A program made the translations under genes and the position numbers. Of a DNA stretch of 63,099 nt, positions 25,234-57,145 are shown in pieces. The stretch is from NCBI GenBank assembly GCA_003712055.1, contig RHLJ01000008.1, forward strand, positions 1 to 63,099. The letters run 5' to 3'. Below the pieces are notes generated by a model. It did no database searches, was not told where the DNA came from, and worked only from the letters and a program-made list of their open reading frames with translations. The stretch is from Balneola sp. Lineage in GTDB: Bacteria > Bacteroidota > Rhodothermia > Balneolales > Balneolaceae. The stretch's first letter is position 1; every line of letters starts with the position of its first letter.

Positions 25234-25261
25234 GTTTATAGATGTATAGAATTAATAGTCA

Positions 25262-27676: not shown

Positions 27677-27690
27677 CGTTGTACTCCTGT

Positions 27691-30188: not shown

Positions 30189-30294
30189 GCCAACAACCGT
30201 ACCAAACTATAGAAATAGTTAAATAACACTTAAAAACGACGATTTAGATCAAAAATATGTCCGTTATGATACAGGCAGTGTACGCTAACGAACA
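30189..30294 (-). promoter_or_regulatory. Sigma54 promoter with twin upstream activator sites, unit IV
   Basis: On the minus strand TGGTACGGTTGTTGGC (30189-30204) matches the -24/-12 pattern TGGCAC-N5-TTGC with two differences (T for C at the fourth base, TTGG for TTGC), keeping the diagnostic GG. Upstream lie two 16-bp sites, TGTCCGTTATGATACA (30258-30273) and TGTACGCTAACGAACA (30279-30294), whose starts are 21 bp apart; the first begins 54 bp from the end of the -24 box. The same geometry recurs at three other places in the array. Likely activator: the response regulator at 50626-52002. Confidence 0.8.
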
Positions 30295-30318
30295 GTGACG
30301 TAAGTGTCGCTCTTAATG

Positions 30319-30416
30319 ACCCACCCCTCAATCCCCTCCGATGGAGGGGAAGCTCTTTGTTTAAGAATCTTATCTAACTATAAGAGTTCCCCTCTTGGGA
30401 GGGGACAGGGGTGGGT
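30319..30416. repeat. 98-bp palindromic element (ACCCACCCCT type)
   Basis: Outer arms ACCCACCCCT (30319-30328) and AGGGGTGGGT (30407-30416); internal hairpins CCCCTCC/GGAGGGG and CCCCTC/GAGGGG. Same family as 35709-35838. Sits in the 515-bp gap between permease D's stop and the unit IV activator sites; it may act as a 3' structure for unit III. Confidence 0.8.
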
Positions 30417-30423
30417 AAAGGTC

Positions 30424-30478
30424 TAGCCACAAAAAATACAGGACCACTGATTTTTGTGTGTTAGTGTCTTTGTGGCTG
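30424..30478. repeat. AGCCACAAA-type inverted repeat
   Basis: TAGCCACAAA (30424-30433) is answered by TTTGTGGCT (30469-30477), an imperfect palindrome directly following the ACCCACCCCT element. A related copy is at 35619-35674. From 30479 to 30560 I see nothing recognisable. Confidence 0.65.
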
Positions 30479-30560
30479 GTAAAAAGCGCTACCTGCTCCG
30501 TCTTAAAAGTATCTTGTGTAGATAAGGGGTATGTCTTTGTAGGTTTAAATAAAACCTAAT

Positions 30561-30655
30561 ATTTCCCTCCCATGGAGTGGATTAAGGGGTGGGTGAAGGT
30601 CTATCCACAAAACCACCGAACCAATAACTTTGTGTTTTAGAGTTTTTATGGCTCG
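30561..30655. repeat. Degenerate second copy of the composite repeat module
   Basis: TTCCCTCCCATGGAG and AAGGGGTGGGTGAAGGTCTA repeat the right half of the 30319-30416 element, followed by TCCACAAAACCACCGAACC...TTTGTGTTTT...ATGGCT, a worn version of the AGCCACAAA repeat. It ends about 10 bp after the permease D stop codon. Confidence 0.6.
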
Positions 30656-30665
30656 CAAAAACTGC

Positions 30666-33017
30666 TTACTCGCTCTTTAAACTCTTAACCGGGTTAGCTA
30701 TAGCTGCTTTTATGGACTGCCAGCTCACTGTAATCCATGCTATAATGAGTGCTGAAATCCCAGCTGCTCCGAAAGCCCACCATTCAATTCCGGAACTATA
30801 GGCATAGTCCGATAGCCACTGATTCATTAAATACCAGGAAACTGGGGTGGAAATAGCAATGGAGACTAATACCAACTTGGTAAAGTCGCCTGATAGAAGG
30901 AGTACCAGACTATGTACCGTTGCTCCAAGAACTTTCCGAACACCAATTTCTTTTGCCCGTTGCTCAGCCGTAAATGCAGAGAGGCCAAATAAACCTAAGC
31001 AGGAAATAAAGATGGCTATAATGGAGAAATAACGTGCAAGTGCTCCAATGCGCATTTCGCTTTGATATAAGGTGGCGTACTGGTCATCCATAAAATGGTA
31101 ATTGAATGGATACGTAGGATTGAAGGATGTATAAGTTTCCTCAATTTGAGCAATCGTATTTGTGATATTGGCAGATTCAAGACGGACAAAAGCTCTCCAT
31201 CCAAAATCGGGGGTAAGGCGGAAGAAAACGGGATTAACTTCAGTGCGAAAACTTTGAAAATGGAAATCCTTAGCTACTCCAATGATTTCTCTTTCTTCAT
31301 CCCATAAGGTGATTACTTTTCCTATAGGATCCTCAAGTCCCATTGCTGCTATACCTGTCTCATTGAAAATAATTTTCGAAGAATCTGCTCCATAATCATC
31401 AGAAAAGCTACGTCCTTCAATAATCTCAATATCCATGGTATTAATGAGTCCGTAGTCCATTCCAATATTTTCAAATAAGATGCGAGTTTCGGGATCTTTA
31501 TCCGGCCAGTCTAAACCCATTGTATTATTATGTTGATACAAGAAGGAGTGCGTGGATCTGGAAGTACTTATAACCCCCGGAATATTCTCAATCTGTTCAC
31601 GGAATGTATCCCACTGTTCGCCAACCTCGTCCTCTGTAGTAAAGTAAATAAGATTCTCTTTGGTATATCCCAGGTTTTGATTGAGCGTAAACTGAATCTG
31701 GCGATAAACAATAATGGTGGAAACGATGAGAATAATTGAAAGACTGAATTGGAAAACAACCAAACCCTTCCGTGCAAACGCCTCTTTACCTGAGGATTTA
31801 AGAGATCCTTTGAGAGTTTTAACGGCCTCCATTGATGAAAGGTAAAAAGCAGGATAACTACCAGAAACCAATCCGGTGATCAGAACAGTACCTATAAAAA
31901 TGGCAAGCAGGGCTGGGTTTGAATAATCAACAGAAATTGCCTTGTCGGTCAGATCGTTAAAAATAGGAAGGGATATTTCTACCATTAGAAGGGAAACAAA
32001 CAGGGAGAAGAAACTGATGATCATAGACTCACCAATGAACTGTCCTATCAATGATCCTTTACCTGCTCCAATAGACTTTCTTATGCCAACTTCTTTTGAA
32101 CGTTTAGCAGCTTTTGCAGTGCTTAGGTTCATAAAGTTGATACAGGCGATTAGTAAAATAAAGATGGCTACAATGGTAAATAGTCTCACATATTCTATTC
32201 TTCCACCTACAACTACTTTATTCTCAAACTGGCTGAAGAGATATCTTTCCGTGAATGGGTACACGAAGAGATCAACATGTGATCCTTCATTCTTGGTTTT
32301 TACATACCCTTCAATCTTCTCATTAAGTGCGGCTACATCCGTTCCGGGAATTAATTTTGAAATCGCACGGGGACCATTATTACCCCATTCTGTTGCCCAT
32401 TCACTTTCCAGTAACCAATCATCATATCTGAGCAGGCAATCAAATTGGAACGTAGAGTTACTAGGCATATTTGCGAATACCCCGGTAATGGTTAACTCCT
32501 GGTCATTATCCAGGGTTATTCCCTCTCCAACCGGGTTTCTTTCTCCGAAATATTTTTTTGCCATATCCTCAGATATAACAACTGTATTCGGATTAACAAG
32601 AAGTTCCTCACGGTTACCATAAATCAGATCTATGCTAAGAATTTGAAAGAAGTCATTTTCTACATAAATGCCTTGCTCTCTAAACGATTGATTATCCTTC
32701 GTAAATAAGTAATCTATACTCCATGTATAATTGGAAGCATATTCAAACTCAGGAAATTCTTCTTTTATGTTTCGAGCTACGATACCCGGTGTAGAAAGGG
32801 TAGTGGAGATGTCATCTGAATAGTTTTGGTGTTCCATTATCTGGTAGATGCGATCTGAATCAGCATGATATTTATCTACACTCAGCTCATCCATTACCCA
32901 TAAAAAAATGAGGAAGCTACAGGCTAAGCCAATGGAAAGACCAGCCACATTGATAAAGAAGGAACTTTTTTGGCGCCTAAATCCCCGAAGCGCAGTTTTC
33001 AAATAATTTTTTAGCAT
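30666..33017 (-). CDS. FtsX/MacB-type ABC permease D
   Basis: 783 residues, the shortest of the ten. Starts MLKNYLKTALRGFRRQKSSF, more basic than its paralogues. Coupling motifs KEVGIRKSIGA (~306) and KEIGVRKVLGA (~686) are intact; C-terminus ANPVKSLKSE. The region before the last helix (SDYAYSSGIEWWAFGA) departs from the SEFAYRI consensus of the others. Second gene of unit III, 67 bp after permease E, the largest spacing inside a unit, but I find no promoter in that gap. Confidence 0.92.
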   Translation of the reverse strand: MLKNYLKTALRGFRRQKSSFFINVAGLSIGLACSFLIFLWVMDELSVDKYHADSDRIYQIMEHQNYSDDISTTLSTPGIVARNIKEEFPEFEYASNYTWSIDYLFTKDNQSFREQGIYVENDFFQILSIDLIYGNREELLVNPNTVVISEDMAKKYFGERNPVGEGITLDNDQELTITGVFANMPSNSTFQFDCLLRYDDWLLESEWATEWGNNGPRAISKLIPGTDVAALNEKIEGYVKTKNEGSHVDLFVYPFTERYLFSQFENKVVVGGRIEYVRLFTIVAIFILLIACINFMNLSTAKAAKRSKEVGIRKSIGAGKGSLIGQFIGESMIISFFSLFVSLLMVEISLPIFNDLTDKAISVDYSNPALLAIFIGTVLITGLVSGSYPAFYLSSMEAVKTLKGSLKSSGKEAFARKGLVVFQFSLSIILIVSTIIVYRQIQFTLNQNLGYTKENLIYFTTEDEVGEQWDTFREQIENIPGVISTSRSTHSFLYQHNNTMGLDWPDKDPETRILFENIGMDYGLINTMDIEIIEGRSFSDDYGADSSKIIFNETGIAAMGLEDPIGKVITLWDEEREIIGVAKDFHFQSFRTEVNPVFFRLTPDFGWRAFVRLESANITNTIAQIEETYTSFNPTYPFNYHFMDDQYATLYQSEMRIGALARYFSIIAIFISCLGLFGLSAFTAEQRAKEIGVRKVLGATVHSLVLLLSGDFTKLVLVSIAISTPVSWYLMNQWLSDYAYSSGIEWWAFGAAGISALIIAWITVSWQSIKAAIANPVKSLKSE

Positions 33018-33084
33018 ATGATATCCTTGTAAACCTCTTTTCGTAACACTTAAAGCGTTCTGTAGAGTTACATTAAAATTTCAT

Positions 33085-35466
33085 TTATTCGCTTTTCAAG
33101 CTATCTACGGGATTAGCTAAAGCAGCTTTAATGGCCTGGTAACCAATAGTTAACAGGGCTACTCCGATAATCGCAATACCGGAACCGGCGAAAACAACTA
33201 TTCCGGGAGTGGTGCTAAAGGCAAAACTATTCAGCCATTGTTGAATCAGGAAGTAGGCAAGGGGCGCGCCAATTAAAAAGCCGATTACTACAAGCTTTAA
33301 AAAGTCAAAAGATATAGACTGCACTATACTTGCTACAGAAGCACCCAATACTTTCCGAATACCGATTTCCTTTCTTCTGTTAATTACAGAAAATGAAACC
33401 AAACCTAGTAGTCCTAAGCAGGCAATAAATATGGTGAGGTATGCGAAGTAGCGAAGCATCTCTCCAATTACTTCCTCAGTGGTATAATCGGTAGCAATAT
33501 CCTCTTCCAGGTAGTAATACCATACCGGAACTCCACTGTTGAATGCTTTCAAAGCATCCGAGATTTGAGTAGCTACCCCATCAAAATCGGCGCTGCTCAC
33601 CTTTACCGTAATATCAAAAAAGCTTTCCGGATCATAGCGAATAATCAGGGGGGCAATTCTTGAGTGTAGGGTTTCATAATTGAAATCTTTGACTACACCT
33701 ACCACGGTATATAGAATCTCTTCGCCATCTATTCTGCGGGTTATTGTCTTACCTACCGGATCATCCCATCCAAATCTTGAAGCCGCTGCTTCATTAATAA
33801 TCAGGGAATTGCTTGATCCGCTTTCTATGTCTGAACTGAAATCTCGACCCTGGAGTAATTCGAGGTTGAATTGAGAAATAAAATATTCATCAATAGAATA
33901 GGTGTTTACCAGAGTGCCATCTTCTGAAAATGTACCCTCGGGATAAAACTGAACTCTATTTCCGGATTCGTTACCTGGAGTATTTGAACTAAAAGATACA
34001 TTGGAAACACCGGGTATTTTGAACAGCTCTTCACGTACAAGATTATGACCGTTTTCAGACAAAGCATCAGGAACACCAACTACAAGTATATTATTCTTGT
34101 CGAATCCGAGGTCCTTATTTTTTAGATAGGATAATTGTCTATCAACGGCCAGTGTACTAACGATCATAAAAATAGCGACCGTAAATTGTGTAACTACAAG
34201 TGCTGTTCTAAGGAAGGATTTCCCTCCGGTTCCCGTCTTTTCCCCTTTCAATACGGCAGCTGGTTTAAACGCTGAAAGCACGAATGCAGGATATCCCCCG
34301 GCCAATACCCCCACAAGTACTACCACTAAAAAGATAGCGATTAAATAAAGTGGGTTAGACAGGTATGTAGCTTCTACACTCCATTCGGCGATATCATTAA
34401 ACCATGGAAGGGCCACCTCTACAAGTACCAGACTAATTAGAACACCAAAAATTGAAAGAATCACTGCTTCGGCCAGGAATTGGAATACCAATTGGCCTTT
34501 AAATGCTCCCATCACTTTTCGAACGCCCACTTCTTTGGATCTCTTTAATCCTTGAGCGGTTGATAAGTTTACAAAGTTAATACAGGCTATTATCAAGATG
34601 AGTAAACCCAAAGCCATGAAAATATAGATGTAAGCAATTTCAAGGCTGTCGCCATGTTCGGCATACAGGTTAGAGTGCAAAAAGAGGTCGGTTAGAGGTT
34701 GTAGATGAATGTCGTAGCGCTGTACAAATTCTTCTCCAATATGACGATTTACAAAAGCAGGAAATTTTGCTTCTAGTGCGGCTATATCTGTGCCTTCCTG
34801 GAGTAACAAATAAGTATAAAGATTATGAGATCGCCAATCGTTTAGAGAAGCATAGTCTTCTTCTGTTACTGAAGAGAAGGGAACCAGGGAATTAAACATA
34901 AAACTAGACCTTGGGTTCAATTTCTGAAGTACCCCGGTAACTTCGAATGGCTCTTTATCGAGAAGTAGTGTTCTGCCTATTGGGTTTTCCTCCCCGAAAT
35001 ACCGAACGGACATTTGTTCGGTAAGTACAATACTGGATGGATTGGCTAACGCTCCTTCCGGGTTCCCATATTTAAAGTCATAAGAAAACACATCAAAGAT
35101 TCCTTCATCAACATAGGTAATACCCTGTCGGAGAATTTTATTTTCATACTGTATGGCAGCACCACGCCCCATAAAGCGAACGGCATCTTCCACTTCCGGA
35201 AAGTCATCGACCATTGCCTGACCCCATGGGCTTGCTGAAATCGCAACATCAAGAATACTGCCATTCTGTTGAGTGATTTTATCTGCAACTCTATAGATGC
35301 GATCCGAATTCTCATGGTAGCGATCGTAAGTGAATGCATATTGCATGAGCAAAAAAAGGAAGAGGCAGATACCCATTCCAATAGCTAAACCAACTGTATT
35401 GATGAAAGCATATCCCTTTTGCTTAGAGATGTTTCTGAACGCGATTTTGATGTAGTTTTTAAGCAT
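33085..35466 (-). CDS. FtsX/MacB-type ABC permease E
   Basis: 793 residues. Coupling motifs KEVGVRKVMGA (~309) and KEIGIRKVLGA (~698); C-terminus ANPVDSLKSE. TM1 is particularly Met/Leu rich (GLAIGMGICLFLFLLMQYAF). The last helices read FAFSTTPGIVVFAGSG instead of the FAYRIEI type. First gene of unit III: the sigma54 -12 element is 34 bp before the ATG. The linker before TM5 is KTGTGGKSFLRTA. Confidence 0.92.
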   Translation of the reverse strand: MLKNYIKIAFRNISKQKGYAFINTVGLAIGMGICLFLFLLMQYAFTYDRYHENSDRIYRVADKITQQNGSILDVAISASPWGQAMVDDFPEVEDAVRFMGRGAAIQYENKILRQGITYVDEGIFDVFSYDFKYGNPEGALANPSSIVLTEQMSVRYFGEENPIGRTLLLDKEPFEVTGVLQKLNPRSSFMFNSLVPFSSVTEEDYASLNDWRSHNLYTYLLLQEGTDIAALEAKFPAFVNRHIGEEFVQRYDIHLQPLTDLFLHSNLYAEHGDSLEIAYIYIFMALGLLILIIACINFVNLSTAQGLKRSKEVGVRKVMGAFKGQLVFQFLAEAVILSIFGVLISLVLVEVALPWFNDIAEWSVEATYLSNPLYLIAIFLVVVLVGVLAGGYPAFVLSAFKPAAVLKGEKTGTGGKSFLRTALVVTQFTVAIFMIVSTLAVDRQLSYLKNKDLGFDKNNILVVGVPDALSENGHNLVREELFKIPGVSNVSFSSNTPGNESGNRVQFYPEGTFSEDGTLVNTYSIDEYFISQFNLELLQGRDFSSDIESGSSNSLIINEAAASRFGWDDPVGKTITRRIDGEEILYTVVGVVKDFNYETLHSRIAPLIIRYDPESFFDITVKVSSADFDGVATQISDALKAFNSGVPVWYYYLEEDIATDYTTEEVIGEMLRYFAYLTIFIACLGLLGLVSFSVINRRKEIGIRKVLGASVASIVQSISFDFLKLVVIGFLIGAPLAYFLIQQWLNSFAFSTTPGIVVFAGSGIAIIGVALLTIGYQAIKAALANPVDSLKSE

Positions 35467-35500
35467 GGCTAATCCGTTTAGTATTGTCTAAGGATACAAT

Positions 35501-35606
35501 GCCAATAACTGTACCAAACTTGGAATAAGAGTCTAAATCCCCTAAAACAGAAGGTTTTAAGGGATTATATGTTCGATATTATACAGGGGGTGTTCGATAT
35601 CGGACG
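35501..35606 (-). promoter_or_regulatory. Sigma54 promoter with twin upstream activator sites, unit III
   Basis: Minus strand TGGTACAGTTATTGGC (35501-35516) as -24/-12. Activator sites TGTTCGATATTATACA (35570-35585) and TGTTCGATATCGGACG (35591-35606) start 21 bp apart, the first 54 bp from the end of the -24 box, separated by GGGGG. Identical geometry to the other three promoters. Confidence 0.8.
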
Positions 35607-35618
35607 GTAAATGAAGAT

Positions 35619-35674
35619 TAGCCACAAAAACATAGCACCACCACCAACTTTGTGCGATGGAGTCTTCGTGGCTG
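35619..35674. repeat. AGCCACAAA-type inverted repeat
   Basis: TAGCCAC (35619-35625) pairs with GTGGCTG (35668-35674), relative of 30424-30478. Located just upstream of the unit III activator sites, in the 432-bp gap between permeases E and F. Confidence 0.6.
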
Positions 35675-35708
35675 GTAAGAGTCATGATTAGAGTCCAAAA
35701 TTAGTTTA

Positions 35709-35838
35709 ACCCACCCCTCAATCCCCTCCAATGGAGGGGAGGTTTTCTTCCACAGTACTGTATTCGAAGATATTATTGTTGTTTTGAATCAAATGTAGAT
35801 CAAAGAGTTCCCCTCTAGGGAGGGGAAAGGGGGTGGGT
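35709..35838. repeat. 130-bp palindromic element (ACCCACCCCT type)
   Basis: Outer arms ACCCACCCCT (35709-35718) and AGGGGGTGGGT (35828-35838), inner CCCCTCC/GGAGGGG and CCCCTCT/AGGGAGGGG hairpins. Second copy of the family at 30319-30416, with a longer and different centre. Confidence 0.8.
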
Positions 35839-35843
35839 AGAGA

Positions 35844-35890
35844 TTAGCCATAGAAACACAGAACCACTAATTCTGTGTTTCTATGGCTAA
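35844..35890. terminator. Perfect 20-bp-arm hairpin after permease F
   Basis: TTAGCCATAGAAACACAGAA (35844-35863), 7-nt loop, and its exact complement (35871-35890), starting 8 bp past the permease F stop. It belongs to the AGCCACAAA repeat family, but the perfect stem suggests a recent insertion or selection as a 3' hairpin ending unit II. No T run follows on the minus strand, so factor-independent termination is uncertain. Confidence 0.6.
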
Positions 35891-35898
35891 TAAATTAC

Positions 35899-38277
35899 TT
35901 ACTCTGTTTTCAAGCTATCCACAGGATTTGCTAAGGCAGCTTTGGTAGAATTGAAAACGACGGTTATCAAGGCGATGGATATAGAAGCAAAACCCGCTAA
36001 CAAAAATATGCCCACTCCAATTTCTATTCGGTAGGCAAATTCGGCAAGCCATTCATTCATTGCATACCAGGCAACTGGTATTGATATCGCAAAACCTAAT
36101 CCGACAAGTAATAAATACTCTCTAGATAATAATGTGAGTAAATCTTTTAGTGAAGCTCCCAGTACTTTTCTGATACCAATTTCCTTGGTTCTGCGCTGGG
36201 TAGAATAGGTGACTAACCCAAACAAGCCCATACAAGCAATAAATATGGCAATTCCCGCAAAGGTCATGAACGCATAGCTAAGCTTTCTGTCTGTTTCATA
36301 TAACTCGGCAAAACGATCTTCCAGAAAGCGATAATCTAGGGGAGAAGCTGGACTCAGTTTTGCCCATTCCTCTTGCAAATAGGCAATAAGTGGTTGTACC
36401 TCTTCAGCATTAAACTTGATTGCAATCTGGCTGTAGTTTTGATACCTGGAGTCGTGATCTCCCATTTGGAGTAGGAGAGAGCCTATTTCGGAATGCAGTG
36501 ATTTGAAATTAAAATCTGAAACTACCCCAATCACTTCACTGCTATCTACAAAGACCTTACCAATAGCTTCTTCAGGACCAGCCCACCCTAAGGCAGTAAC
36601 CATAGCTTCATTAATTACTCGTGCTTTTTCTAAATCCGAAGGGTAATTCTCATCGAAAAAGCGTCCAGCTTTCATAGTTAAACCAAGTACCTCATCATAA
36701 TCCTCATCTGCCCGAATTACCGAAGTCTGAAGGTTAAGATCAGGTTGAGATGGATCAAAGCTCATGCCCATGGATAGGCTTATACGCCCGGGTAAATCGG
36801 TAGCAGCTGATGCGTTAATGACAGCAGAATGCTGAAGTATATTTTCCTTGAACACATCAATTTGATCGGAGATTTGATAGGCATTGATAAACATAACCTG
36901 TTCACTTTTGAAACCAAGGTCTTTGTTTAGCAAAAAGCGAAGCTGAGAAAAAGCTACAATTGTGCTTATTATCAGCACGGTAGACACGGTAAACTGAGTA
37001 ACAACCAGCGCCTTTCGGAATGAGAACTTTGCATTAAGATTTTTAACCGATCCTTTTAGAGCTCGAGATGGGTTAAATCGAGATAAGTAGAAGGCCGGAT
37101 ATGCACCCGAACCAATTCCGATGCAAATTGAGATTAAGAATAGTGCTGCTATAAACTGCCAGTCGGTAGAAAAGTTCAATACTAGATTGTGATCTAGCAG
37201 CGAATTGAAATACGGCAGTGCAAACTCAACGAGTAGAAGGCTAAATAAAAACGAAACTACTGTAACAATGATAGCTTCGCTGAGGAATTGCATTATGAGT
37301 TGCTTTTTCTCAGCACCTACTACTTTTCTTACCCCAACTTCTAAAGAACGCATGGTGGCTCTGGATGTAGCAAGGTTCATATAGTTGATGGAGGCCAAGA
37401 GCAATATGAAAATACCTATAGCGGAAAAGATATAGATATATTTCATATCCCCTTTGAACCCGGTACTGGATACAAACTCAGAGAAATACAGATCGGTTAA
37501 CGGAATCGAAAAGAAACTGGAATTTGATTCTTCTCCAAGGTACTTAGAAGTCACTTCCTCAAGTTTAGGCTGTACCTGATCCCAATCGGTATCAGGGTAA
37601 AGTTTAACATAGGTGTTAAACATGCTTGCGCCCCAGGCTTCTTCCAGATTTATATATGAATTATTGCCTTTTATAGACGCAACTACATCAAACCGGACGT
37701 AGGAATTTTCTCCTATATCTTTAGCAACTCCTGAAATCACTAATTCATTATCTCCGTAATATTTTACATAAATCGTTTTTCCGATCGGGTTTTCATTAGG
37801 AAAGTATTTTTCTGCTATGCTTTGAGCGATCACTACTGAATTTGGGTCAGCCAGTACAGTTTTTGGATCTCCTGTTTTTAAGGGGAATGAAAAGATTTCA
37901 AAAAACTGCTCAGAGCTCATTAAAATCCGCGTATCTCCGAAAAACTCTTCTCCATCAATACTGATCTGACCATTTCCAGGCCAAAGAGTAGTCACATGCT
38001 GTTTTACTTCAGGAATCTCTTGTTCCATTGAAGCACCTAAGGGCCTTGGAGTACTCAACCCTTTGTTAGATGATTCCCCATATCGGCTTTCTAAACCCAA
38101 ATAGTGGATCTGTTCGCTATCCTCATGGAATTTGTCATAACTCAATTCCTCAGTTACAAATAGGGATATGAGCACCAGGCAGGCTAAACCCAAAGAGAGG
38201 CCTAAAATATTTATTACAGAGTAAGATTTATTTCGGAGGAAGTTTCTCCAGGCAATCTTCAAATAATTAGAGAACAT
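35899..38277 (-). CDS. FtsX/MacB-type ABC permease F
   Basis: 792 residues. Coupling motifs LEVGVRKVVGA (~311) and KEIGIRKVLGA (~696); the first replaces the usual Lys by Leu in the leading position. C-terminus ANPVDSLKTE. The first periplasmic domain contains WPGNGQISIDGEEFFGDTRIL. Last gene of unit II, 13 bp after permease G; followed by the perfect hairpin at 35844-35890. Confidence 0.92.
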   Translation of the reverse strand: MFSNYLKIAWRNFLRNKSYSVINILGLSLGLACLVLISLFVTEELSYDKFHEDSEQIHYLGLESRYGESSNKGLSTPRPLGASMEQEIPEVKQHVTTLWPGNGQISIDGEEFFGDTRILMSSEQFFEIFSFPLKTGDPKTVLADPNSVVIAQSIAEKYFPNENPIGKTIYVKYYGDNELVISGVAKDIGENSYVRFDVVASIKGNNSYINLEEAWGASMFNTYVKLYPDTDWDQVQPKLEEVTSKYLGEESNSSFFSIPLTDLYFSEFVSSTGFKGDMKYIYIFSAIGIFILLLASINYMNLATSRATMRSLEVGVRKVVGAEKKQLIMQFLSEAIIVTVVSFLFSLLLVEFALPYFNSLLDHNLVLNFSTDWQFIAALFLISICIGIGSGAYPAFYLSRFNPSRALKGSVKNLNAKFSFRKALVVTQFTVSTVLIISTIVAFSQLRFLLNKDLGFKSEQVMFINAYQISDQIDVFKENILQHSAVINASAATDLPGRISLSMGMSFDPSQPDLNLQTSVIRADEDYDEVLGLTMKAGRFFDENYPSDLEKARVINEAMVTALGWAGPEEAIGKVFVDSSEVIGVVSDFNFKSLHSEIGSLLLQMGDHDSRYQNYSQIAIKFNAEEVQPLIAYLQEEWAKLSPASPLDYRFLEDRFAELYETDRKLSYAFMTFAGIAIFIACMGLFGLVTYSTQRRTKEIGIRKVLGASLKDLLTLLSREYLLLVGLGFAISIPVAWYAMNEWLAEFAYRIEIGVGIFLLAGFASISIALITVVFNSTKAALANPVDSLKTE

Positions 38278-38290
38278 ATCAGCAAGTTTT

Positions 38291-40705: not shown

Positions 40706-40739
40706 GGCTTTTGCTGTTATTAGTACTCAGGATGAATAT

Positions 40740-40845
40740 TTCAACAAGCGTGCCAAAATCCCAAAACCTCCTTAAAAGAGGTGTAAAGGCTGATTTTCTA
40801 ACATTGGATGCACGGTATAGTACACCAGGTGTTCGAAAACGAACA
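40740..40845 (-). promoter_or_regulatory. Sigma54 promoter with twin upstream activator sites, unit II
   Basis: Minus strand TGGCACGCTTGTTGAA (40740-40755): perfect -24 box, TTGA for TTGC at -12. Activator sites TGCACGGTATAGTACA (40809-40824) and TGTTCGAAAACGAACA (40830-40845), starts 21 bp apart, first 54 bp from the end of the -24 box. The second is a perfect TGTTCG-N4-CGAACA palindrome, the best of the eight. It ends 5 bp before the permease H stop codon, so the whole control region fits in a 145-bp gap. Confidence 0.88.
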
Positions 40846-40850
40846 ATGAT

Positions 40851-43265: not shown

Positions 43266-43288
43266 GACTTGTAGGTATTTAAGCGTTT

Positions 43289-45703
43289 TTATTCATTCTT
43301 CAGGCTATTTACCGGATTCATTCTGGCTATGGAAAAGGCCTGCCAACCGATTGCTAAGAAGGCAATGATCGCGGTTAAAGTTCCCGATAAGATGAAGAGC
43401 CAAAGAGTTAGATCAATTTTATAAGCAAACTGTGTAAGCCATTGCTGGGTAGTATACCATGCAATAGGAGTGGCTATGAAAAAGCCAATTAAAACAGGTT
43501 TTAAGAAGTCTTTGGAAAGAAGTAACAGAATAGTAGAAGTAGTAGCTCCCAGTACTTTCCGGATACCAATTTCCTTAGTTCGTTGTGAAATGGTAAAGGT
43601 GGCCAGGCCTAATAACCCAAGACACGCTATTAAAAGCGCAAGCATGGTGAAATAGTTTAACAGCCTTGCAAACCTGTTTTCAGTTTGATACATAGTTTGA
43701 AAGGCATCATCCAAGAAAATAAACTCGAAGGGGTAGCCCGGAGAAAAAGTAGCTACCGTTTCTTCTATGTAAGCCAGAGTTGTTGGAACATCACTTGCAT
43801 CAATTTTCACAAATATCTTCTGGTACGGGAACCACCAATCTGTTTCAAGAAATAAAGCCAATGGTTCAATTGCCTGATGATAGGAATGGAAATTAAAGTC
43901 CTTTACTACACCAGTTATTCTTCCTTCTCTTCCTCTGAATGTAAACGATTTGTCGGTAGCAGTATCCCAACCAAGTTTTCGTTTCATGGCTTCATTAATA
44001 ATGATCCCTGTTTGTTCATCTGTAGCCATGTCTTTAGAAAAATCTCTTCCCTCAATAATCTCAAGGCCAAATAAGGAGATGAAATCATGCTGAATAGCCG
44101 AGCGGTAAACCGTTACTCTTCCTTCAGGTTCCATGCCTTCCCAACCTGTTGCAATGCTGGAGGCCTGGATGTTAATAGGATCAATTTGAGCAGCCGACAC
44201 CACTTGGATGCTGCTCTTTTTCTCTAATGCATCTTTTAAGATTTCATACTTTTGATACAGATCTCTGTCTTTAATCGAAATAGATACAATCTGCTCTCTT
44301 TCAAGTCCTGTAGTAGTTGAACTAATGAAGTTTAATTGCTTGTATATCACCAATGCACCAATTATGAGTGCAATGGTAGCCGTAAACTGAGCACTTACCA
44401 ATACCTTTTGTAGCATTGGTTTGCCTGATTTACTTACAGAATGTCCTTTAAGGGCTTTTATCGGGTTGAATCGGGACAATACAAAAGCCGGATAAACACC
44501 AGCCATGAGACTAACCAGCACACCAACTCCCAAAATGAGAAGAAGAATATAAGGAGCATGTGAAAAGGTCATGGAGATATCACGATTAACTAGAGATCCG
44601 AAGTACGGAAGGAATACCTGAACCAGGGCCAGTGCAATAATTACAGCGGCAGAGGTAATTAATAGCGATTCCGTTAGGAATTGGGTAGAAAGTTGCTGCT
44701 TCGAAGCACCAATCGACTTTCGAACACCAACCTCCTTAGCTCTTAAAAATGAACGTGCGACAGAAAGGTTAGTGTAGTTAATACAGGCTAATGCAATAAT
44801 AATTAAAGCAATTGCAGAAAACAGGTACACATATAGGATATTCCCATTAGCCTGGAATTCCCCATTCACTTTCGAGTAAAGATGAATGCCCTTTAAGGGC
44901 TGTATAAAATATGCCCCTTTTCGATTTTCTGATTGATCCGCGTGTTCTTGTTCATATTTTTCGGTAACAGCATTTATATTGCTTACCAGATCAGAAGAAG
45001 GGGTATTTGAAGCTGTTAGAATATAGGTCAGGTAGCTATTACTTCTCCAGCTTTCCAGGTAGTTGCTTAATTCATGTGAAGAAGTAACGGGTACTATGTA
45101 GTCAAAAGATAAATGGCTGTTGGCAGGTACATCACTAAATACCCCTTTTACAACCATAGTTAGTTCTCCGCTGAAATGACCACCTGAGTGAATCACCGAA
45201 AAGGCTTGTCCAACAGCATTGGTATTTCCGAAGTACTTTTGAGCTAGTGATTCAGAAAGAAAAATTCCATTTGGGTCTTCAATTCCATTTCCAGTATCTC
45301 CCTGAATCAGCTTAAAACTGAAAACATCAAAAAAATCACCAGCTGCAAAAATTCCCGATTCTTCTACACCCTGGTTATCCTTTTTGAAAAAAGAAGTCAC
45401 CTTTGTGATATTGGTAGCTGCTTTTATATCAGGGATCTCATTTACTAAAGCAGATGAAAGGGGAGCAGAGGTGCTTACCCATTCATCAGATCCAAGGAAC
45501 TCGGCAGTGAATCCTTTTTTACCTACCCGGTAGATATCTTCATAATTCTCATGGAAAGCATCATAACTCAACTCATGTTGGATGAATAACCCAATCAAAA
45601 GAAAAGAAGCCAGGCCTACAGAAAGCCCGAAAACGTTAATGAAAGAGTATCCAGGCTTTTTAAGAAGGTTTCTTAATCCAATTTTTAGATAATTCTTGAA
45701 CAT
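43289..45703 (-). CDS. FtsX/MacB-type ABC permease I
   Basis: 804 residues. Coupling motifs KEVGVRKSIGA (~322) and KEIGIRKVLGA (~708); C-terminus MNPVNSLKNE. TM1 reads GLSVGLASFLLIGLFI; the second periplasmic domain includes IQASSIATGWEGMEPEGRV. The last helix region (FAYKIDLTLWLFILSGTL) is followed by IGWQAFSIARMNPV, where the usual QxIKAAL(A)NP is changed. Spaced 23 bp from both neighbours in unit I. Confidence 0.92.
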   Translation of the reverse strand: MFKNYLKIGLRNLLKKPGYSFINVFGLSVGLASFLLIGLFIQHELSYDAFHENYEDIYRVGKKGFTAEFLGSDEWVSTSAPLSSALVNEIPDIKAATNITKVTSFFKKDNQGVEESGIFAAGDFFDVFSFKLIQGDTGNGIEDPNGIFLSESLAQKYFGNTNAVGQAFSVIHSGGHFSGELTMVVKGVFSDVPANSHLSFDYIVPVTSSHELSNYLESWRSNSYLTYILTASNTPSSDLVSNINAVTEKYEQEHADQSENRKGAYFIQPLKGIHLYSKVNGEFQANGNILYVYLFSAIALIIIALACINYTNLSVARSFLRAKEVGVRKSIGASKQQLSTQFLTESLLITSAAVIIALALVQVFLPYFGSLVNRDISMTFSHAPYILLLILGVGVLVSLMAGVYPAFVLSRFNPIKALKGHSVSKSGKPMLQKVLVSAQFTATIALIIGALVIYKQLNFISSTTTGLEREQIVSISIKDRDLYQKYEILKDALEKKSSIQVVSAAQIDPINIQASSIATGWEGMEPEGRVTVYRSAIQHDFISLFGLEIIEGRDFSKDMATDEQTGIIINEAMKRKLGWDTATDKSFTFRGREGRITGVVKDFNFHSYHQAIEPLALFLETDWWFPYQKIFVKIDASDVPTTLAYIEETVATFSPGYPFEFIFLDDAFQTMYQTENRFARLLNYFTMLALLIACLGLLGLATFTISQRTKEIGIRKVLGATTSTILLLLSKDFLKPVLIGFFIATPIAWYTTQQWLTQFAYKIDLTLWLFILSGTLTAIIAFLAIGWQAFSIARMNPVNSLKNE

Positions 45704-45726
45704 GACAGAGCTTTTTGAATAGTCGT

Positions 45727-48159
45727 TTATTCGTCTTTTAGAGTATGAGCCGGGTTTAACAGTGCAGATCTAATGGCTTGAAAGCTGATAGTAAAGAGGG
45801 CAATAGCTAAAGCAATTCCTCCACCAACCAAAAATATCCATACACTAATAGGTTTATAATAGGCGAAGCTTTCCAGCCATTTATTCATGCCGAAATAAGC
45901 AATGGGTGAAGCTAATAGGAAGGCGATAAGAACGAGTTTTGTGAAATTCGTAGACAGCAAATACACAATTTGAGAAACAGAAGCGCCTAATACTTTTCGG
46001 ATACCGATTTCCTTTACGCGTTGCTGAATGGTAAATGAAGCTAATCCAAAAAGTCCTAAAGCAGCTATTATGATGGCTAGCAAAGCGAAATAGCTAAATA
46101 CTTTTCCAAGGCGTTCTTCTCCTTCATATTGCCCGGCAAAATTATCTTCAATCAGATAATAATCGAATGGAAAGTTAGGACGGTAGTTGGCCCAGGTATT
46201 TTCGAGGTAAGCAATAGTTTCCTGCTCATAAGCTTCATTATACTTAACCGCAATAGTATTATTCCTTCCGCTCGATATCACAAATACGATTGGAGCGATA
46301 TCCTGATGAAGAGATTCAAAATGAAAATCGTTTACAACACCTGTAATAAAGCCCTGACGTCCACCATAATTGAATTGTTTCCCTATTGCGTCTTCTGAAG
46401 AACTATATCCTAATCGGTTTATAGACGATTCGTTAAGTATGAATGCTTCTGATGAATCACTGGCCAGATTGATGTCAAAATTTCTACCAGCAACTATTTC
46501 CAGTCCAAATAAATCAAGGAAGTTATGACTGATATGGATATCAGCAATTCTAAAGTTTACAGTAACAAGTTCTCCGTCTATTTCGGCTGATGCGCCCTGG
46601 GAATCGAGTAAGCGTCCGGATGGAACTCTGCTTTGCATTGATACATCGAGTATCCCCGGTTGTTGAAGCAATCGGTTTCTTATATCTGCATAATTCATCT
46701 CTATTTCAGGGCTAACCGGTACTACCGCAATGTTATCCTTATTGAAACCAAGCTCCTTTTCCTGGATGTAATCCAATTGATTGTAGACAACCCCCATGCT
46801 GGCAATTAAAGAAATTGAGATGGTGAATTGGAGAACTACTAATCCCGAACGAAACCATTTATGCTTTCCTCCTGATTTGAACGATCCTTTTAATACTACC
46901 GCAGGTTGGAAAGAAGAGAGGAACAGGGCAGGATAACTGCCAGCTACCAGGCCAATAAAAACGACAATACTCAGAAGTCCCAAAGTCCAACGCATATCAG
47001 AGAAATAATTCAGAACCAGCTCCTTTTCCACAAAATTATTGAAGTAGGGGATCAGGACTTCTATGAATATGATGCCAAGAACTAAAGCCATAAAGGCTAG
47101 AAGGAATGATTCGCCCATAAATTGACGAACCAACGAGGTACGTTCAGCTCCCATTACTTTTCTAAGTCCTACTTCATTTGCTCTTCTCGCAGATCGGGCA
47201 GTCGATAGGTTCATGAAATTGATGCACGCGATCAATAGGATAAAAATAGCTACCGCAGTATAGATATATACATACTCTATGTTTCCATTTGCTTCAATTT
47301 CAGAATCAAGATGAGAGTGAAGATGTATGTCGGTAACATTCATCAAATGGAGCTTCATAAAGTCTGATGCCTGAATCCCGTCATCAAATTGATCAGGAGG
47401 AAAAGCCTTGTTCATGATGGCAGGAAATTTGGCTTCCAGTTCTTCTGGATTGGTTTGTTCAGACAATAAGAGATAGGTTGAGAAATTATTACTTCCAAAG
47501 TTTTGCATCATCTGTTCATAGCCACCATAGAATTGAACAACTGGTTCCATAGAGGCTAGGAAATCAAATTTGAAGTGCGAGTTTTCAGGCACATCCTCAA
47601 TTACTCCATTAACCTGGAAAACCATTTCAGTACCTTGACTGGAGAAATCAAGCGCTTTACCTATTGGATCTTCATCGCCAAAATAAACTTCCGCCATACT
47701 TTGGGTTATCACTAACCCATCTGGTGAAGTCAAAGCAGTAGCAGGATTTCCTTTTACCATATTCCAGGAGAAGACTTCAAAAACATCATGATCAGCAAAA
47801 AAGAATCTATCCTGAACAAGGTTCTTATTTTGGTAGCTGATAAGTGGAGAAACATCAAAGAAGCGTACCGCATTAAGTACGTCATCCGGATACTCTTCTT
47901 TTATCATTTCTGCAAAGGGAGGAGCAACATGTCCAAGATGAAGACTTGTTTCTCCGTCTCGATTTTGCCACTCACGCGATACCCGGTAAATACGATCCGA
48001 GTCGTCATGATATTTATCATAACTCAATTCATCTGTAATGAACAGAAGAATGAGGATGAAGGCTGTGATTCCGAGAGCCAGTCCAAAAATATTTATGAAC
48101 GAATATCCCGGGTTTTTAATCAGATTTCGAATCGCAATTTTAAAGTAATTTTTGAGCAT
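45727..48159 (-). CDS. FtsX/MacB-type ABC permease J
   Basis: 810 residues. Coupling motifs NEVGLRKVMGA (~327) and KEIGIRKVLGA (~714); the C-terminal tag is NPAHTLKDE rather than NPVxSLKxE, and the helix before it reads FAYYKPISVWIFLVGGG. Lies 27 bp after ATPase 1, the first permease translated in unit I and probably the ancestral partner of ATPase 1 and the adaptor by position (inference). Confidence 0.92.
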   Translation of the reverse strand: MLKNYFKIAIRNLIKNPGYSFINIFGLALGITAFILILLFITDELSYDKYHDDSDRIYRVSREWQNRDGETSLHLGHVAPPFAEMIKEEYPDDVLNAVRFFDVSPLISYQNKNLVQDRFFFADHDVFEVFSWNMVKGNPATALTSPDGLVITQSMAEVYFGDEDPIGKALDFSSQGTEMVFQVNGVIEDVPENSHFKFDFLASMEPVVQFYGGYEQMMQNFGSNNFSTYLLLSEQTNPEELEAKFPAIMNKAFPPDQFDDGIQASDFMKLHLMNVTDIHLHSHLDSEIEANGNIEYVYIYTAVAIFILLIACINFMNLSTARSARRANEVGLRKVMGAERTSLVRQFMGESFLLAFMALVLGIIFIEVLIPYFNNFVEKELVLNYFSDMRWTLGLLSIVVFIGLVAGSYPALFLSSFQPAVVLKGSFKSGGKHKWFRSGLVVLQFTISISLIASMGVVYNQLDYIQEKELGFNKDNIAVVPVSPEIEMNYADIRNRLLQQPGILDVSMQSRVPSGRLLDSQGASAEIDGELVTVNFRIADIHISHNFLDLFGLEIVAGRNFDINLASDSSEAFILNESSINRLGYSSSEDAIGKQFNYGGRQGFITGVVNDFHFESLHQDIAPIVFVISSGRNNTIAVKYNEAYEQETIAYLENTWANYRPNFPFDYYLIEDNFAGQYEGEERLGKVFSYFALLAIIIAALGLFGLASFTIQQRVKEIGIRKVLGASVSQIVYLLSTNFTKLVLIAFLLASPIAYFGMNKWLESFAYYKPISVWIFLVGGGIALAIALFTISFQAIRSALLNPAHTLKDE

Positions 48160-48186
48160 GGCAGCAGAATCCTGGGTTAGTGTTTG

Positions 48187-48876
48187 TTACACATGAAAGC
48201 CTTCTTTCATGTTTTCTGTCACTACATGTCCATCGAAGAGGTGGATAATTCTGGTCGCAAAATCGGCGTCATGAGGAGAGTGAGTTACCATTACAATAGT
48301 AGTACCTGCTTCATTTAACTCTTCAAGAAGTTTCATCACTTCGTTGCCATGGTCCGAATCGAGGTTACCGGTAGGCTCATCGGCAAGAATAAGCTTGGCA
48401 TTAGCAACTACAGCCCGCGCAATAGCAACTCGCTGCTGTTGACCACCAGAAAGCTGTTGCGGAAAGTGATTTCTCCTGTGCATCATATTCATTCGCTCAA
48501 GAGCAGCTTCTGCTTTTTCTTTTCTTTCATTGGAATTCATGCCCAAATACAATAGGGGTAGCTCAACATTTTCAAATACTGTTAACTCATCAATCAAGTT
48601 GAAGCTTTGGAATACAAAACCGATGTTCCCTTTTCTGAGTTGAGCTCTTTCTCTTTCGCTGTAAGCAGAAACCTCATGTCCCAAAAAGTGATATTCACCT
48701 TCACTTGGGTTATCAAGAAGTCCCATGATATTCAAGAGGGTAGATTTACCACATCCCGAAGGTCCCATTATGGCTACGAATTCACCTTCCTTGATTTCAA
48801 CATTCACATTATTAAGAGCGGTAGTTTCCACATCTTCTGTTATGTATAGTTTTTTTAGATTTTTGGCCTGTATCAT
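48187..48876 (-). CDS. ABC transporter ATP-binding protein 1 (MacB/LolD type)
   Basis: 229 residues with canonical motifs: Walker [11 protein letters not shown]-loop [12 protein letters not shown], signature [15 protein letters not shown], Walker [16 protein letters not shown]-loop VTHSPHDAD. Energises FtsX/MacB-type permeases from the cytoplasm. The consensus signature and its position next to the adaptor make it the likely main motor for the array. Separated from the adaptor by a 214-bp gap mostly filled by the heptamer tract, the only large gap inside unit I. Confidence 0.95.
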
Positions 48877-48933
48877 TTTGAATCGGTTTGGTTGTTAATT
48901 TTTTTTGTATGAATTAGTTCGGATATAGTATCG

Positions 48934-49087
48934 TCAATGTTCAATGTTCAATGTTCAATGTTCAATGTTCAATGTTCAATGTTCAATGTTCAATGTTCAA
49001 TGTTCAATGTTCAATGTTCAATGTTCAATGTTCAATGTTCAATGTTCAATGTTCAATGTTCAATGTTCAATGTTCAATGTTCAATGT
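48934..49087. repeat. Heptamer tandem repeat, 22 copies of TCAATGT
   Basis: Perfect 7-bp array (unit TCAATGT on the plus strand, ACATTGA on the minus) from 48934 to 49087, starting 3 bp from the adaptor stop codon and ending 57 bp before the ATPase 1 start codon as transcribed. It is the reverse complement of the tract at 1-126. It lies inside the predicted unit I transcript. It is open in all plus-strand frames as a (MFNVQCS)n-like reading, which I regard as a by-product of a unit length not divisible by three and lacking stops in that direction. Confidence 0.97.
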
Positions 49088-49090
49088 TCA

Positions 49091-50347
49091 TCATTGCAAA
49101 TTGAGAACCTCGTTATCTCCAAAAGTGTCGTAACTCGAGATAATTACTTTGTCTCCGGGGCTTAATCCAGAAATGACTTCGAAGTAATCAGGGTTTTGCT
49201 GTCCCAACCTGATATTAGTTCGCACTGCTTGCTGTTCGTCTTCATCCAGTTTATACACCCAGCTTCCTCCCGAAGAGTTGAAGAAACCTCCTCGTTCTAA
49301 TAACACTGCAGTAGAAGTGTCTCCAAGTTCTAATCTAATCCGTACTCTTTGTCCTCTTCTTATCCTGGATGGGGTCTCGCCCTGGAATTCCATATCCACC
49401 TGAAATTGCCCATTGGCAATAACAGGATACACTTTTGTAATAGCCAGGTCGTAAGACTCGCCTGCAAAATCAAAGGATCCTCTAAGTCCTGTAGTAATTC
49501 TGGAAAGGTGAAATTCATCGACACCAACCCTTACTTTAAAGTTATCCAGCATATCTACCTGACCGATTCGCTCACTTCTATTTATAGATTGTCCTTGTTG
49601 TAACTCAATCGTGGTAAGTTGACCATCTATAGGAGCGGTGATTATTAAATTGTCTAAAATTTCTTGTACTGCATTTAGACTTCTCCACATCCTTTGTTCA
49701 GATTCATCCAGTTGTCGAAGTTGACTAATAGTTTGAAGGGAATCTTTTAAAAATGACTCATAGGTGAGCTCATATCTTTTTTCTTCGTATTTAAAATTCT
49801 CCTTAGTCTCTTCATATTCTTCTCTCGAGATCAGATTTTCATTGAAAAGCCTTTGTTGACGTTCGTAACGAGGACGTAGAACATCCAGCTGATACTCAGC
49901 ATTGGCTAGCTGTTCCTTGATTCGTAGACTATTTTGCTCAAGGTTAAGCCGTGAATTCCTCACATTGTTAATCTGATCATATAACCCGGCCTCTTGCTGC
50001 AAAACCTGTAGCTGGAGATTTGAATTCGATAGAACAACGATTGTATCTCCTGGTTGAACATTAGTACCCGTTTCCAGGACTACCCTTTGAACAGTACCAC
50101 CTTCAATGGCATCCAGAAAAATAGTATTGATTGGCTGGATGTTTCCGGTTACTTGGATGAACTCCTGAAAAGAGTCTTCCGCGATCGTAGTGATTGTAAG
50201 TTTTTCTCTGTCCACATTTAAGGTTGATCTGAAATCAGCGAACCAAAAACTATAAACAAAGAAAGCTATTACTACTACACCAAGTACCAGACCAATTATT
50301 CGATTGGTTGTCCAGGTTTTCTTTTTGATTTTTCTATCCATTCCCAT
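49091..50347 (-). CDS. MacA/HlyD-type periplasmic adaptor protein
   Basis: 418 residues. N-terminal membrane anchor (~17-36, IIGLVLGVVVIAFFVYSFWF), first half of the lipoyl/barrel-sandwich domain ~70-105, an alpha-helical coiled-coil hairpin ~108-225 rich in Leu/Gln/Glu, second lipoyl half with APIDGQLTTIELQQGQ (~240-255), then beta-barrel and membrane-proximal domains. Such adaptors link inner-membrane MacB-type permeases to a TolC-like outer-membrane channel; no TolC gene is in the window. First gene of unit I, 48 bp after the -12 element, and the only adaptor for ten permeases. Stop codon abuts the heptamer tract. Confidence 0.93.
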   Translation of the reverse strand: MGMDRKIKKKTWTTNRIIGLVLGVVVIAFFVYSFWFADFRSTLNVDREKLTITTIAEDSFQEFIQVTGNIQPINTIFLDAIEGGTVQRVVLETGTNVQPGDTIVVLSNSNLQLQVLQQEAGLYDQINNVRNSRLNLEQNSLRIKEQLANAEYQLDVLRPRYERQQRLFNENLISREEYEETKENFKYEEKRYELTYESFLKDSLQTISQLRQLDESEQRMWRSLNAVQEILDNLIITAPIDGQLTTIELQQGQSINRSERIGQVDMLDNFKVRVGVDEFHLSRITTGLRGSFDFAGESYDLAITKVYPVIANGQFQVDMEFQGETPSRIRRGQRVRIRLELGDTSTAVLLERGGFFNSSGGSWVYKLDEDEQQAVRTNIRLGQQNPDYFEVISGLSPGDKVIISSYDTFGDNEVLNLQ

Positions 50348-50395
50348 GATAAAATTGTAAACCGTTTGGTTTTAATATTTTCTTTATCGGCTTAA

Positions 50396-50501
50396 TTCAA
50401 CTACTGTGCCAAATGTAACCTACCATCATTAATGGGCATTAAAGGCCATATAGTGGTTTTTGATTGTACATTTTGATACACTTGGTGTCCGATTTCGAAC
50501 A
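50396..50501 (-). promoter_or_regulatory. Sigma54 promoter with twin upstream activator sites, unit I
   Basis: Minus strand TGGCACAGTAGTTGAA (50396-50411): perfect -24 box, N5, TTGA at -12. Activator sites TGTACATTTTGATACA (50465-50480) and TGTCCGATTTCGAACA (50486-50501) start 21 bp apart, the first 54 bp from the end of the -24 box. The sites also lie 125 bp before the divergent response-regulator gene, so autoregulation is possible, although I see no -24/-12 element facing that gene. Confidence 0.88.
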
Positions 50502-57127: not shown

Positions 57128-57145
57128 TTTTCAAAAATTAAGATC

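Follow-up and report, generated by a model that had tools for sequence, protein, structure and literature searches.

A histidine kinase and sigma54 activator as the probable switch of a ten-permease MacB-like exporter array in Balneola

A large array of MacB-like exporter genes in Balneola sp. is interrupted by four sigma54 promoters, each with a pair of upstream activator sites in the same geometry. From the sequence we consider it likely, with a probability of about 0.85, that a histidine kinase and a sigma54 activator encoded beside the array switch on a tripartite, MacB-like exporter whose ten permeases would be alternatives to one another. One sensor system is proposed for the whole array because the same site pair recurs four times at the same spacing and because the sites are gained and lost with the regulator gene. 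The window, that is, the whole stretch of DNA analysed, comprises 63,099 nucleotides of contig RHLJ01000008.1 (assembly GCA_003712055.1); its relevant features are collected in Table 1.

Table 1. Features of the exporter array and its regulatory genes (window coordinates; sites are putative)
Feature	Coordinates	Strand	Sequence or description	Downstream genes
NtrC-type response regulator	50626..52002	+	receiver, Sigma54_activat, HTH_8; GAFTDA loop	
Histidine kinase	52018..53385	+	two predicted TM helices, ~8-residue loop	
Periplasmic adaptor	49091..50347	-	RND_mfp/HlyD type, DarC-like	
ABC ATPase 1	48187..48876	-	DarD/LolD/MacB type	
Three MacB_PCD+FtsX double permeases	40851..48159	-	45727-48159, 43289-45703, 40851-43265; Pfam on 40851 only	
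Two double permeases	35899..40705	-	38291-40705, 35899-38277; 29-39% identical to other permeases	
Two double permeases	30666..35466	-	33085-35466, 30666-33017; Pfam on 33085 only	
Three double permeases	22798..30150	-	27691-30150, 25262-27676, 22798-25233; Pfam on 27691 and 22798	
ABC ATPase 2	21884..22570	-	51% identical to ATPase 1	
P1 sigma54 promoter	50398..50411	-	TGGCACAGTAGTTG; element from 50411, TTTGGCACAGTAGTTGA	adaptor, ATPase 1, three permeases
P1 proximal activator site	50465..50480	-	TGTATCAAAATGTACA	
P1 distal activator site	50486..50501	-	TGTTCGAAATCGGACA	
P2 sigma54 promoter	40742..40755	-	TGGCACGCTTGTTG; element from 40755, TTTGGCACGCTTGTTGA	permeases 38291-40705 and 35899-38277
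P2 proximal activator site	40809..40824	-	TGTACTATACCGTGCA	
P2 distal activator site	40830..40845	-	TGTTCGTTTTCGAACA	
P3 sigma54 promoter	35503..35516	-	TGGTACAGTTATTG; element from 35516, TTTGGTACAGTTATTGG	permeases 33085-35466 and 30666-33017
P3 proximal activator site	35570..35585	-	TGTATAATATCGAACA	
P3 distal activator site	35591..35606	-	CGTCCGATATCGAACA; first base deviates	
P4 sigma54 promoter	30191..30204	-	TGGTACGGTTGTTG; element from 30204, TTTGGTACGGTTGTTGG	permeases 27691-30150, 25262-27676 and 22798-25233, then ATPase 2
P4 proximal activator site	30258..30273	-	TGTATCATAACGGACA	
P4 distal activator site	30279..30294	-	TGTTCGTTAGCGTACA	

All four -24/-12 elements have the form TGGYAC-N5-TTG, and the sigma54 units are positioned in the gaps that separate the permease runs. 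Upstream of each element lie two 16-bp TGT-N10-RCA sites whose starts are 21 bp apart (4/4). The gap between the proximal site and the TGG is exactly 53 nt at every promoter (54 start to start), and the distal site starts 90 bp from the -24 element. The distal site is a strong palindrome, TGTNCG-N4-CGNACA, and the proximal site is weaker; one outer base is missing in two of the eight sites (a C at 35606, and TGCA in place of TACA at the end of the 40809 site). The original prediction had placed every element and site correctly to the base, and its spacings of 54 and 21 bp hold at all four promoters. It had also called the twin sites identical, which is true of their spacing but not of their sequences.

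The regulator combines a receiver, a sigma54-activator AAA+ domain and a Fis-type HTH (PF00072, PF00158 and PF02954, respectively). Its GAFTDA loop, listed among the loop variants thought to retain activity (PMC4641369, in part), is invariant in 12 orthologs, and the receiver aspartate and the HTH are invariant as well. The genome also encodes rpoN (G000:C6:41032-41502, 181.5 bits). The predicted transmembrane helices of the kinase, at 9-27 and 36-54, come from hydropathy only. A divergent sigma54 promoter stands at the regulator in three relatives (G005, G019, G020) and at locus L083; for the window's own regulator, such a promoter was sought in the sequence at the expected distance and not found.

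The array might instead be transcribed mainly from vegetative promoters or by read-through, with the sigma54 units as minor modulators. We regard this as unlikely, since sigma70-like sites between 33000 and 51000 number 35 against a shuffle mean of 47.3, although the consensus scanned does not cover the vegetative promoters of this phylum, and since it is in the gaps separating the runs that the sigma54 units are found.

Across the genome of 3,634,728 bases, TGTNCGN4CGNACA occurs in three places, all in this array. The composite of twin sites and sigma54 element, allowing up to three mismatches, is found four times (with 0, 0, 1 and 1 mismatches), at the four array promoters and nowhere else, in agreement with the original prediction, which had proposed such a genome scan as a check; the reversed composite gives no match in the whole genome. 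The looser pair TGT-N10-RCA-N5-TGT-N10-RCA is present at five other places, none of which passes as a composite. A chance origin was rejected on the genome-wide composite search and the reversed controls.

We then turned to the relatives. In a set of 58 genomes the twin site was found in 12/12 genomes with a regulator ortholog versus 1/46 without, where regulator absence was called at E<=1e-100 from only 28 scored candidates in most of the genomes; the reversed one-mismatch pair pattern matched three times in the 58. Among 23 further family genomes the figures were 12/12 and 1/11, and pooling the family genomes gives 24/24 with the regulator and 2/34 without (23 from the first set and these 11). 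Both exceptions are single matches with one mismatch. In the 11 other regulator-bearing family genomes the pair stands 51-54 nt from a sigma54 element before the adaptor gene in every case, and before internal permease runs too in nine; in the stretches examined of the remaining two (G018, G028), only the adaptor promoter was seen. No composite was found in any of ten stretches that have the adaptor gene but lack the regulator. When the pair was not required, a scan of 30 stretches from the 12 regulator-bearing family genomes, window included, placed a second site at +21 in 39/40 cases, and in 39/45 the distance between first site and sigma54 element was 88-91 bp. The searches for the pair itself also gave twin-site matches at which the scan showed no sigma54 element, in G015 (L069), G019 (L040) and G029 (L053). 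Over 394 genomes of the phylum, a single strong site together with a sigma54 element was found at 49 sites in 28 genomes, and the reversed control gave 0.

On an adaptor tree of 21 rows (G051 was left out, its called adaptor ORF being too short), the regulator label requires four changes, at least three of them forced by well-supported branches, and twin-site status equals regulator status in 21/21 genomes. The connection of the sites to the regulator, which had been proposed from proximity only, is strengthened by the co-occurrence and by this repeated joint presence and absence. Together with the genome scan and the orthologous gaps, these results support the original prediction that one two-component system serves the adaptor, two ATPases and ten permeases.

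Outside the phylum, too, this operator precedes the corresponding adaptor gene. A matrix derived from the family, built after one of 44 composite rows was dropped (a 56-nt gap, on the strand opposite the true promoter), gives a significant operator match (p<0.05) at 42 of 47 distant adaptor loci with a regulator and none at the other five; L123 had too little upstream sequence for scoring. The regulator is divergently arranged in most distant loci. The operator is also present in 7/15 distant loci that have no regulator in the examined stretch, either because the contig ends too early or because the regulator is encoded at another place. These seven loci could be taken to mean that the sites belong to another regulator (a different enhancer-binding protein, or a factor of the CRP/FNR or GntR kind) and that the neighbouring gene is incidental; TGT-N10-ACA is indeed common to unrelated activators such as NifA (PMC2820453, in part), and several D. 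vulgaris enhancer-binding proteins use TGT/ACA half-sites 9, 11 or 12 bp apart (PMC4641369, in part). We consider this very unlikely given the family-wide counts, the ten regulator-less stretches without a composite and the divergent order with the regulator in distant loci.

A full twin at 48-58 nt is present in only 6/63 distant loci. Regulator and twin site occur together in the cultured, non-pathogenic Balneola sp. EhC07 (L077) and Fodinibius salsisoli (L081). At the distant loci with a near-perfect sigma54 element, the strong site lies 88-92 bp away in 23/38 and 68-70 bp away in four more, and the sequence upstream is unrelated. This bears on the proposal that the spacing is under selection. 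Within the genome that argument is weaker, for the 53-nt spacers of the four promoters are somewhat alike (two of them are on average 0.39 identical, where shuffles give 0.29 with a 95% point of 0.396), and the common spacing may thus owe something to duplication of the promoter; the distance kept between phyla restores it. That the geometry was merely inherited, the promoter block having been copied with the permeases, which are paralogs, and its spacing never selected, seems very unlikely in view of the distance and 21-bp offset kept across 12 family genomes and of the distant loci.

With the kinase-activator reading preferred, the mechanism can be outlined. The histidine kinase would phosphorylate the regulator, whose dimers would bind the strong distal palindrome and the weaker site two helical turns nearer the promoter. 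The AAA+ ring would assemble at the twin sites and remodel the RNA polymerase-sigma54 that waits at -24/-12, always the same loop length away, leading to activation. The four units would split the array into four transcripts, with co-transcription within runs. The first would carry the adaptor, ATPase 1 and three permeases, the second and third two permeases each, and the fourth three permeases with ATPase 2. The resulting tripartite exporter would combine a single adaptor and two ATPases with ten permease subunits as alternatives, all co-induced. Most speculatively, the signal may be stress on the membrane or envelope, or else a compound that acts on membranes, because the kinase has two transmembrane helices and almost no periplasmic loop.

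Several known systems resemble parts of this arrangement. MacAB and DarBCD likewise comprise an adaptor, a LolD-like ATPase and a MacB_PCD/FtsX permease (NCBIfam; PMC5985334, in part), but the array has ten permeases per adaptor and scores far under the curated cut-offs. It is not MacB proper, as its ATPases are proteins separate from the permeases and ATPase 1 falls short of PRK10535 (236.1, cut-off 966). Assignment to the darobactin exporter was rejected on scores of 276.5 for DarD (cut-off 375), 235.3 for DarC (450) and 139.1 for DarB (700), and assignment to the ADOP duplicated permeases on 251.3 bits for permease 22798-25233 against TIGR03434 (cut-off 622.3), although the match is full length. 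The Pfam search covered 4/10 permeases.

On the regulatory side, Bce-type modules are independent of sigma54 and use an OmpR-class regulator. Like the present set, they encode together an intramembrane-sensing kinase, a response regulator and an FtsX-type ABC transporter (PMC3023708, PMC10314905, both in part), and the kinase here shares, by hydropathy only, the two helices and very short extracytoplasmic loop. Unlike theirs, the regulator is of the NtrC class by its domains, with sigma54, and the set was not assigned to this group; the transporter, from a Gram-negative lineage, is a double permease of the MacB-like kind and comes with a periplasmic adaptor. The nif operons offer another parallel, with several operons of an island, -24/-12 promoters, TGT-N10-ACA upstream and a single activator, NifA (PMC2820453, in part). 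The upstream site has this form in the array, except that one site ends in RCA and another begins with C. However, the array's activator has a receiver in place of the GAF domain and a kinase partner, and scores 319.7 bits against NCBIfam nifA (cut-off 528.85), so it was not assigned to the NifA regulon; its sites have the core TGTNCG-N4-CGNACA and stand as twins 21 bp apart, and the target is transport, not nitrogen fixation. The comparative reconstruction of enhancer-binding-protein regulons in D. vulgaris also concerns sigma54 regulators and TGT/ACA half-site operators, but in other organisms and for other targets, and its excerpts name no such exporter regulon (PMC4641369, in part).

An earlier computation predicted sigma54 promoters and found them enriched upstream of permeases for ABC-type antimicrobial peptide transport (FtsX-like/COG0577) in several classes including Bacteroidia, a link presented as first evidence; for these genes, the excerpts of that prediction name neither an activator nor an operator or a spacing (PMC12316311, in part). 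The present analysis adds the activator, the operator and the geometry, and our literature searches found no description of this regulator-operator-exporter set.

A wider interpretation, which we offer tentatively and think somewhat doubtful, is that of an ancient cross-phylum envelope-sensing module. A kinase that senses within the membrane, and a sigma54 activator dedicated to this task and having an operator to itself (TGTNCG-N4-CGNACA), would range from Balneolaceae to Ignavibacteria, KSB1, Neomarinimicrobiota, Cloacimonadota, Zixibacteria and Aminicenantes, always before the same adaptor-ATPase-permease exporter. By analogy, it would act as a Bce module whose output runs through sigma54 and whose input is the exporter or its substrate, sensed in the membrane. 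In Balneolaceae the twin-site promoter may have been copied along a growing permease set and, in three genomes, also to a beta-lactamase-family serine hydrolase.

Altogether, the large and poorly understood MacB/FtsX double-permease arrays of Bacteroidota and neighbouring phyla gain a named candidate switch open to testing in cultured strains, and behind a statistical sigma54-FtsX link there now stands one particular regulator, paired with one operator in fixed geometry. The operator matrix makes the regulon readable from genome sequence, and the wide conservation of the pair lets one ask how activator-operator recognition lasts over long times. Compounds that induce these promoters would point to the substrates of the exporter.

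The four array gaps singled out in the original prediction each contain a sigma54 element (TGGYAC-N5-TTG) and, 53 nt upstream of it, a pair of 16-bp TGT-N10-RCA sites whose starts lie 21 bp apart, the distal site being the stronger. The positions and the spacing bear out that prediction for these gaps. The genome-wide scan for paired sites at fixed spacing that it proposed was also run: across the 3.63-Mb host genome the composite of pair and sigma54 element (≤3 mismatches) occurs at four places, all within the array, and its reversed control at none. Likewise, TGTNCGN4CGNACA is found at three places, all within the array; a loose form of the pair alone occurs at five further places, none of which passes as a composite. 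The pattern is therefore real and far beyond chance.

Coordinates of the array, its promoters and associated features (window of contig RHLJ01000008.1 unless a fetched stretch, L, is named; permeases are denoted by start coordinate)
Feature	Position	Strand	Remark
Exporter array	50347 down to 21884	minus	adaptor, ABC ATPase, ten double permeases, second ATPase, in that order
Promoter P1	50411	minus	reads into adaptor, ATPase 1, permeases 45727, 43289, 40851
Promoter P2	40755	minus	reads into permeases 38291, 35899
Promoter P3	35516	minus	reads into permeases 33085, 30666
Promoter P4	30204	minus	reads into permeases 27691, 25262, 22798, ATPase 2
NtrC-type regulator	50626-52002		divergent from adaptor
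Histidine kinase	52018-53385		divergent from adaptor
SpoIIE-type phosphatase, HflK, HflC	53491-58093		downstream of kinase
Perfect array TCAATGT x22.4	48934-49090		adaptor to ATPase 1
Perfect array GAACATT x18.1	1-127		same unit as TCAATGT array; very start of contig
65-codon ORF	22577-22774	minus	separates permease 22798 from ATPase 2
GC-rich palindromic segment (ACCCACCCC...CCCTCC...GGAGGGG...)	30319-30594		upstream of P4 sites
GC-rich palindromic segment, same type	35710-35830		upstream of P3 sites
PF00144 serine hydrolase	L058 8044-9396		twin-site sigma54 promoter
PF00144 serine hydrolase	L061 5612-6959		twin-site sigma54 promoter
PF00144 serine hydrolase	L035 18195-19527		twin-site sigma54 promoter
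Composite of genome G020	L072 762	minus	sites are two tandem TGTTTGTTTTCGAACA copies

The nearest named relatives are Balneolaceae bacteria, with 77-78% adaptor identity (L074, L075). The ten permeases, four of which were covered by the Pfam search, are 29-39% identical, each against the others. Intergenic gaps within the runs measure 13-67 bp, with two exceptions of 214 bp (a heptanucleotide array) and 227 bp (a permease remnant), and each run is probably a single transcript. The remnant, the 65-codon ORF at 22577-22774, joins a permease's first residues to a permease C-terminus and reads as what is left of an eleventh permease after internal deletion. Because the contig ends in a heptanucleotide array, an assembly break is suggested at its start; runs of at least three TCAATGT/GAACATT-type units were absent from 40 relatives' stretches. 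The palindromic segments resemble interspersed repeats, and terminator-like matches lie at 35722 and 35827, by the P3-side segment.

Orthologous gaps were compared in stretches from 11 other Balneolaceae genomes, all with the regulator. The composite is kept upstream of the adaptor in 11/11 and of at least one internal permease run in 9/11; G018 and G028 have the adaptor promoter only, within the stretches read. Allowing one mismatch and any gap of 48-58, a survey of 44 rows (window included) gave site-to-sigma54 gaps of 53 (30), 52 (10), 51 (3) and 56 (1), the last being spurious. As this survey required the pair, it was rerun from one strong site alone, all other requirements being dropped, on 30 stretches of regulator-bearing family genomes, the window included (599 kb), and 11 without the regulator (163 kb). 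In the former, a second TGT-N10-ACA was present 16-59 bp away in 40 cases, 39 of them at +21; of 45 strict sigma54 elements no more than 300 bp away, 39 stood at a distance of 88-91 bp. The latter held one strong palindrome, with neither second site nor sigma54 element.

Among 58 relatives (ortholog threshold E≤1e-100; one mismatch), the twin was present in 12/12 genomes with the regulator versus 1/46 without, 'absence' being tied to the cut-off and to 28 scored candidates per genome; the reversed control matched in three genomes. In 23 further family genomes, with absence again set by the cut-off, the figures were 12/12 versus 1/11, with no control match. The exceptions, G029 and G396, have one match each, with one mismatch. 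No composite was found in ten stretches with the adaptor and without the regulator. On a tree of 21 adaptors, partly unsure owing to long branches, the regulator label changes four times, at least three changes being forced by well-supported branches, and regulator status equals twin-site status in 21/21 genomes. This co-occurrence, with joint gain and loss, is the best available argument that the sites belong to the neighbouring regulator. In four cases (G005, G019, G020 and L083) one pair is shared with a divergent sigma54 element facing the regulator, which would amount to autoregulation. Twin matches for which the scan gave no sigma54 element were seen in L069, L040 and L053.

Outside the main array, G002, G014 and G005 each have a composite ahead of a beta-lactamase-family serine hydrolase gene (PF00144); the family name is no demonstration of resistance. 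In L058 and L061 the hydrolase is preceded by a small conserved ORF that matches no Pfam family; in L058 an MscS-type channel gene comes after the hydrolase. The ORF downstream of the L072 composite, which lies at the end of the stretch, likewise matches no Pfam family.

Across 394 genomes of the phylum, the strict single site plus sigma54 element was found 49 times, in 28 genomes, and its reversed control not once. Seven of the 28 lie outside the family, and all seven, selected for already having a site match, encode a close regulator match (E≤4.1e-146). We also fetched 80 named adaptor loci, 17 close (L074-L090) and 63 distant, 62 of the latter scorable. The close loci, several from genomes already counted in the family comparisons, carried the composite in 10/10 cases with the regulator and 0/7 without. 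In distant loci, a matrix trained solely on family sites detected the operator (p<0.05) in 42/47 with the regulator and in 7/15 without it in the fetched stretch. The positive loci with the regulator include some titled Calditrichaceae, KSB1, Neomarinimicrobiota, Cloacimonadota, Krumholzibacteriia, Zixibacteria, Ignavibacteria and Aminicenantes. A near-perfect sigma54 element accompanies the site in 38 of the 48 distant loci where that site is good, at 88-92 bp in 23 and 68-70 bp in four, as for the distal and the proximal site, respectively, in the window. The best second-site offset is +21 (9/48 with at least five of six outer bases). The full twin composite is rarer in the distant loci (6/63); the strong site is therefore more widely conserved than the pair.

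By hydropathy, the kinase has two predicted transmembrane helices about eight residues apart, as do the ten complete family kinases of the fetched stretches and most distant kinases adjoining the regulator, a few of the latter having one predicted helix. L109, L115, L122 and L127, all distant, have two tandem kinases of this type beside one regulator. In predicted helices and short loop the window kinase resembles intramembrane-sensing kinases, which in Firmicutes partner FtsX-type transporters (PMC3023708). The regulator loop is GAFTDA, not GAFTGA, and invariant in 12 orthologs; a D. vulgaris study counts GAFTDA as one of the loop variants expected to remain active (PMC4641369).

A 2025 study already reports sigma54 promoters enriched upstream of COG0577 permeases in Bacteroidia and presents this as the first evidence of its kind (PMC12316311). 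TGT-N10-ACA is given as the NifA site in PMC2820453, and sigma54 control of the bacterial exterior is argued as a theme in PMC3162934. To this the present analysis adds an identified regulator with its operator, the constant geometry of the twin sites, the gain and loss of sites and regulator together, and the broad spread of the pattern. The order SpoIIE-type phosphatase, HflK, HflC after the kinase, common to the G001, G002, G014 and G019 stretches, suggests a membrane-quality theme. The more novel reading, a cross-phylum membrane-sensing export module, is tentative, and we would give it about one chance in three.
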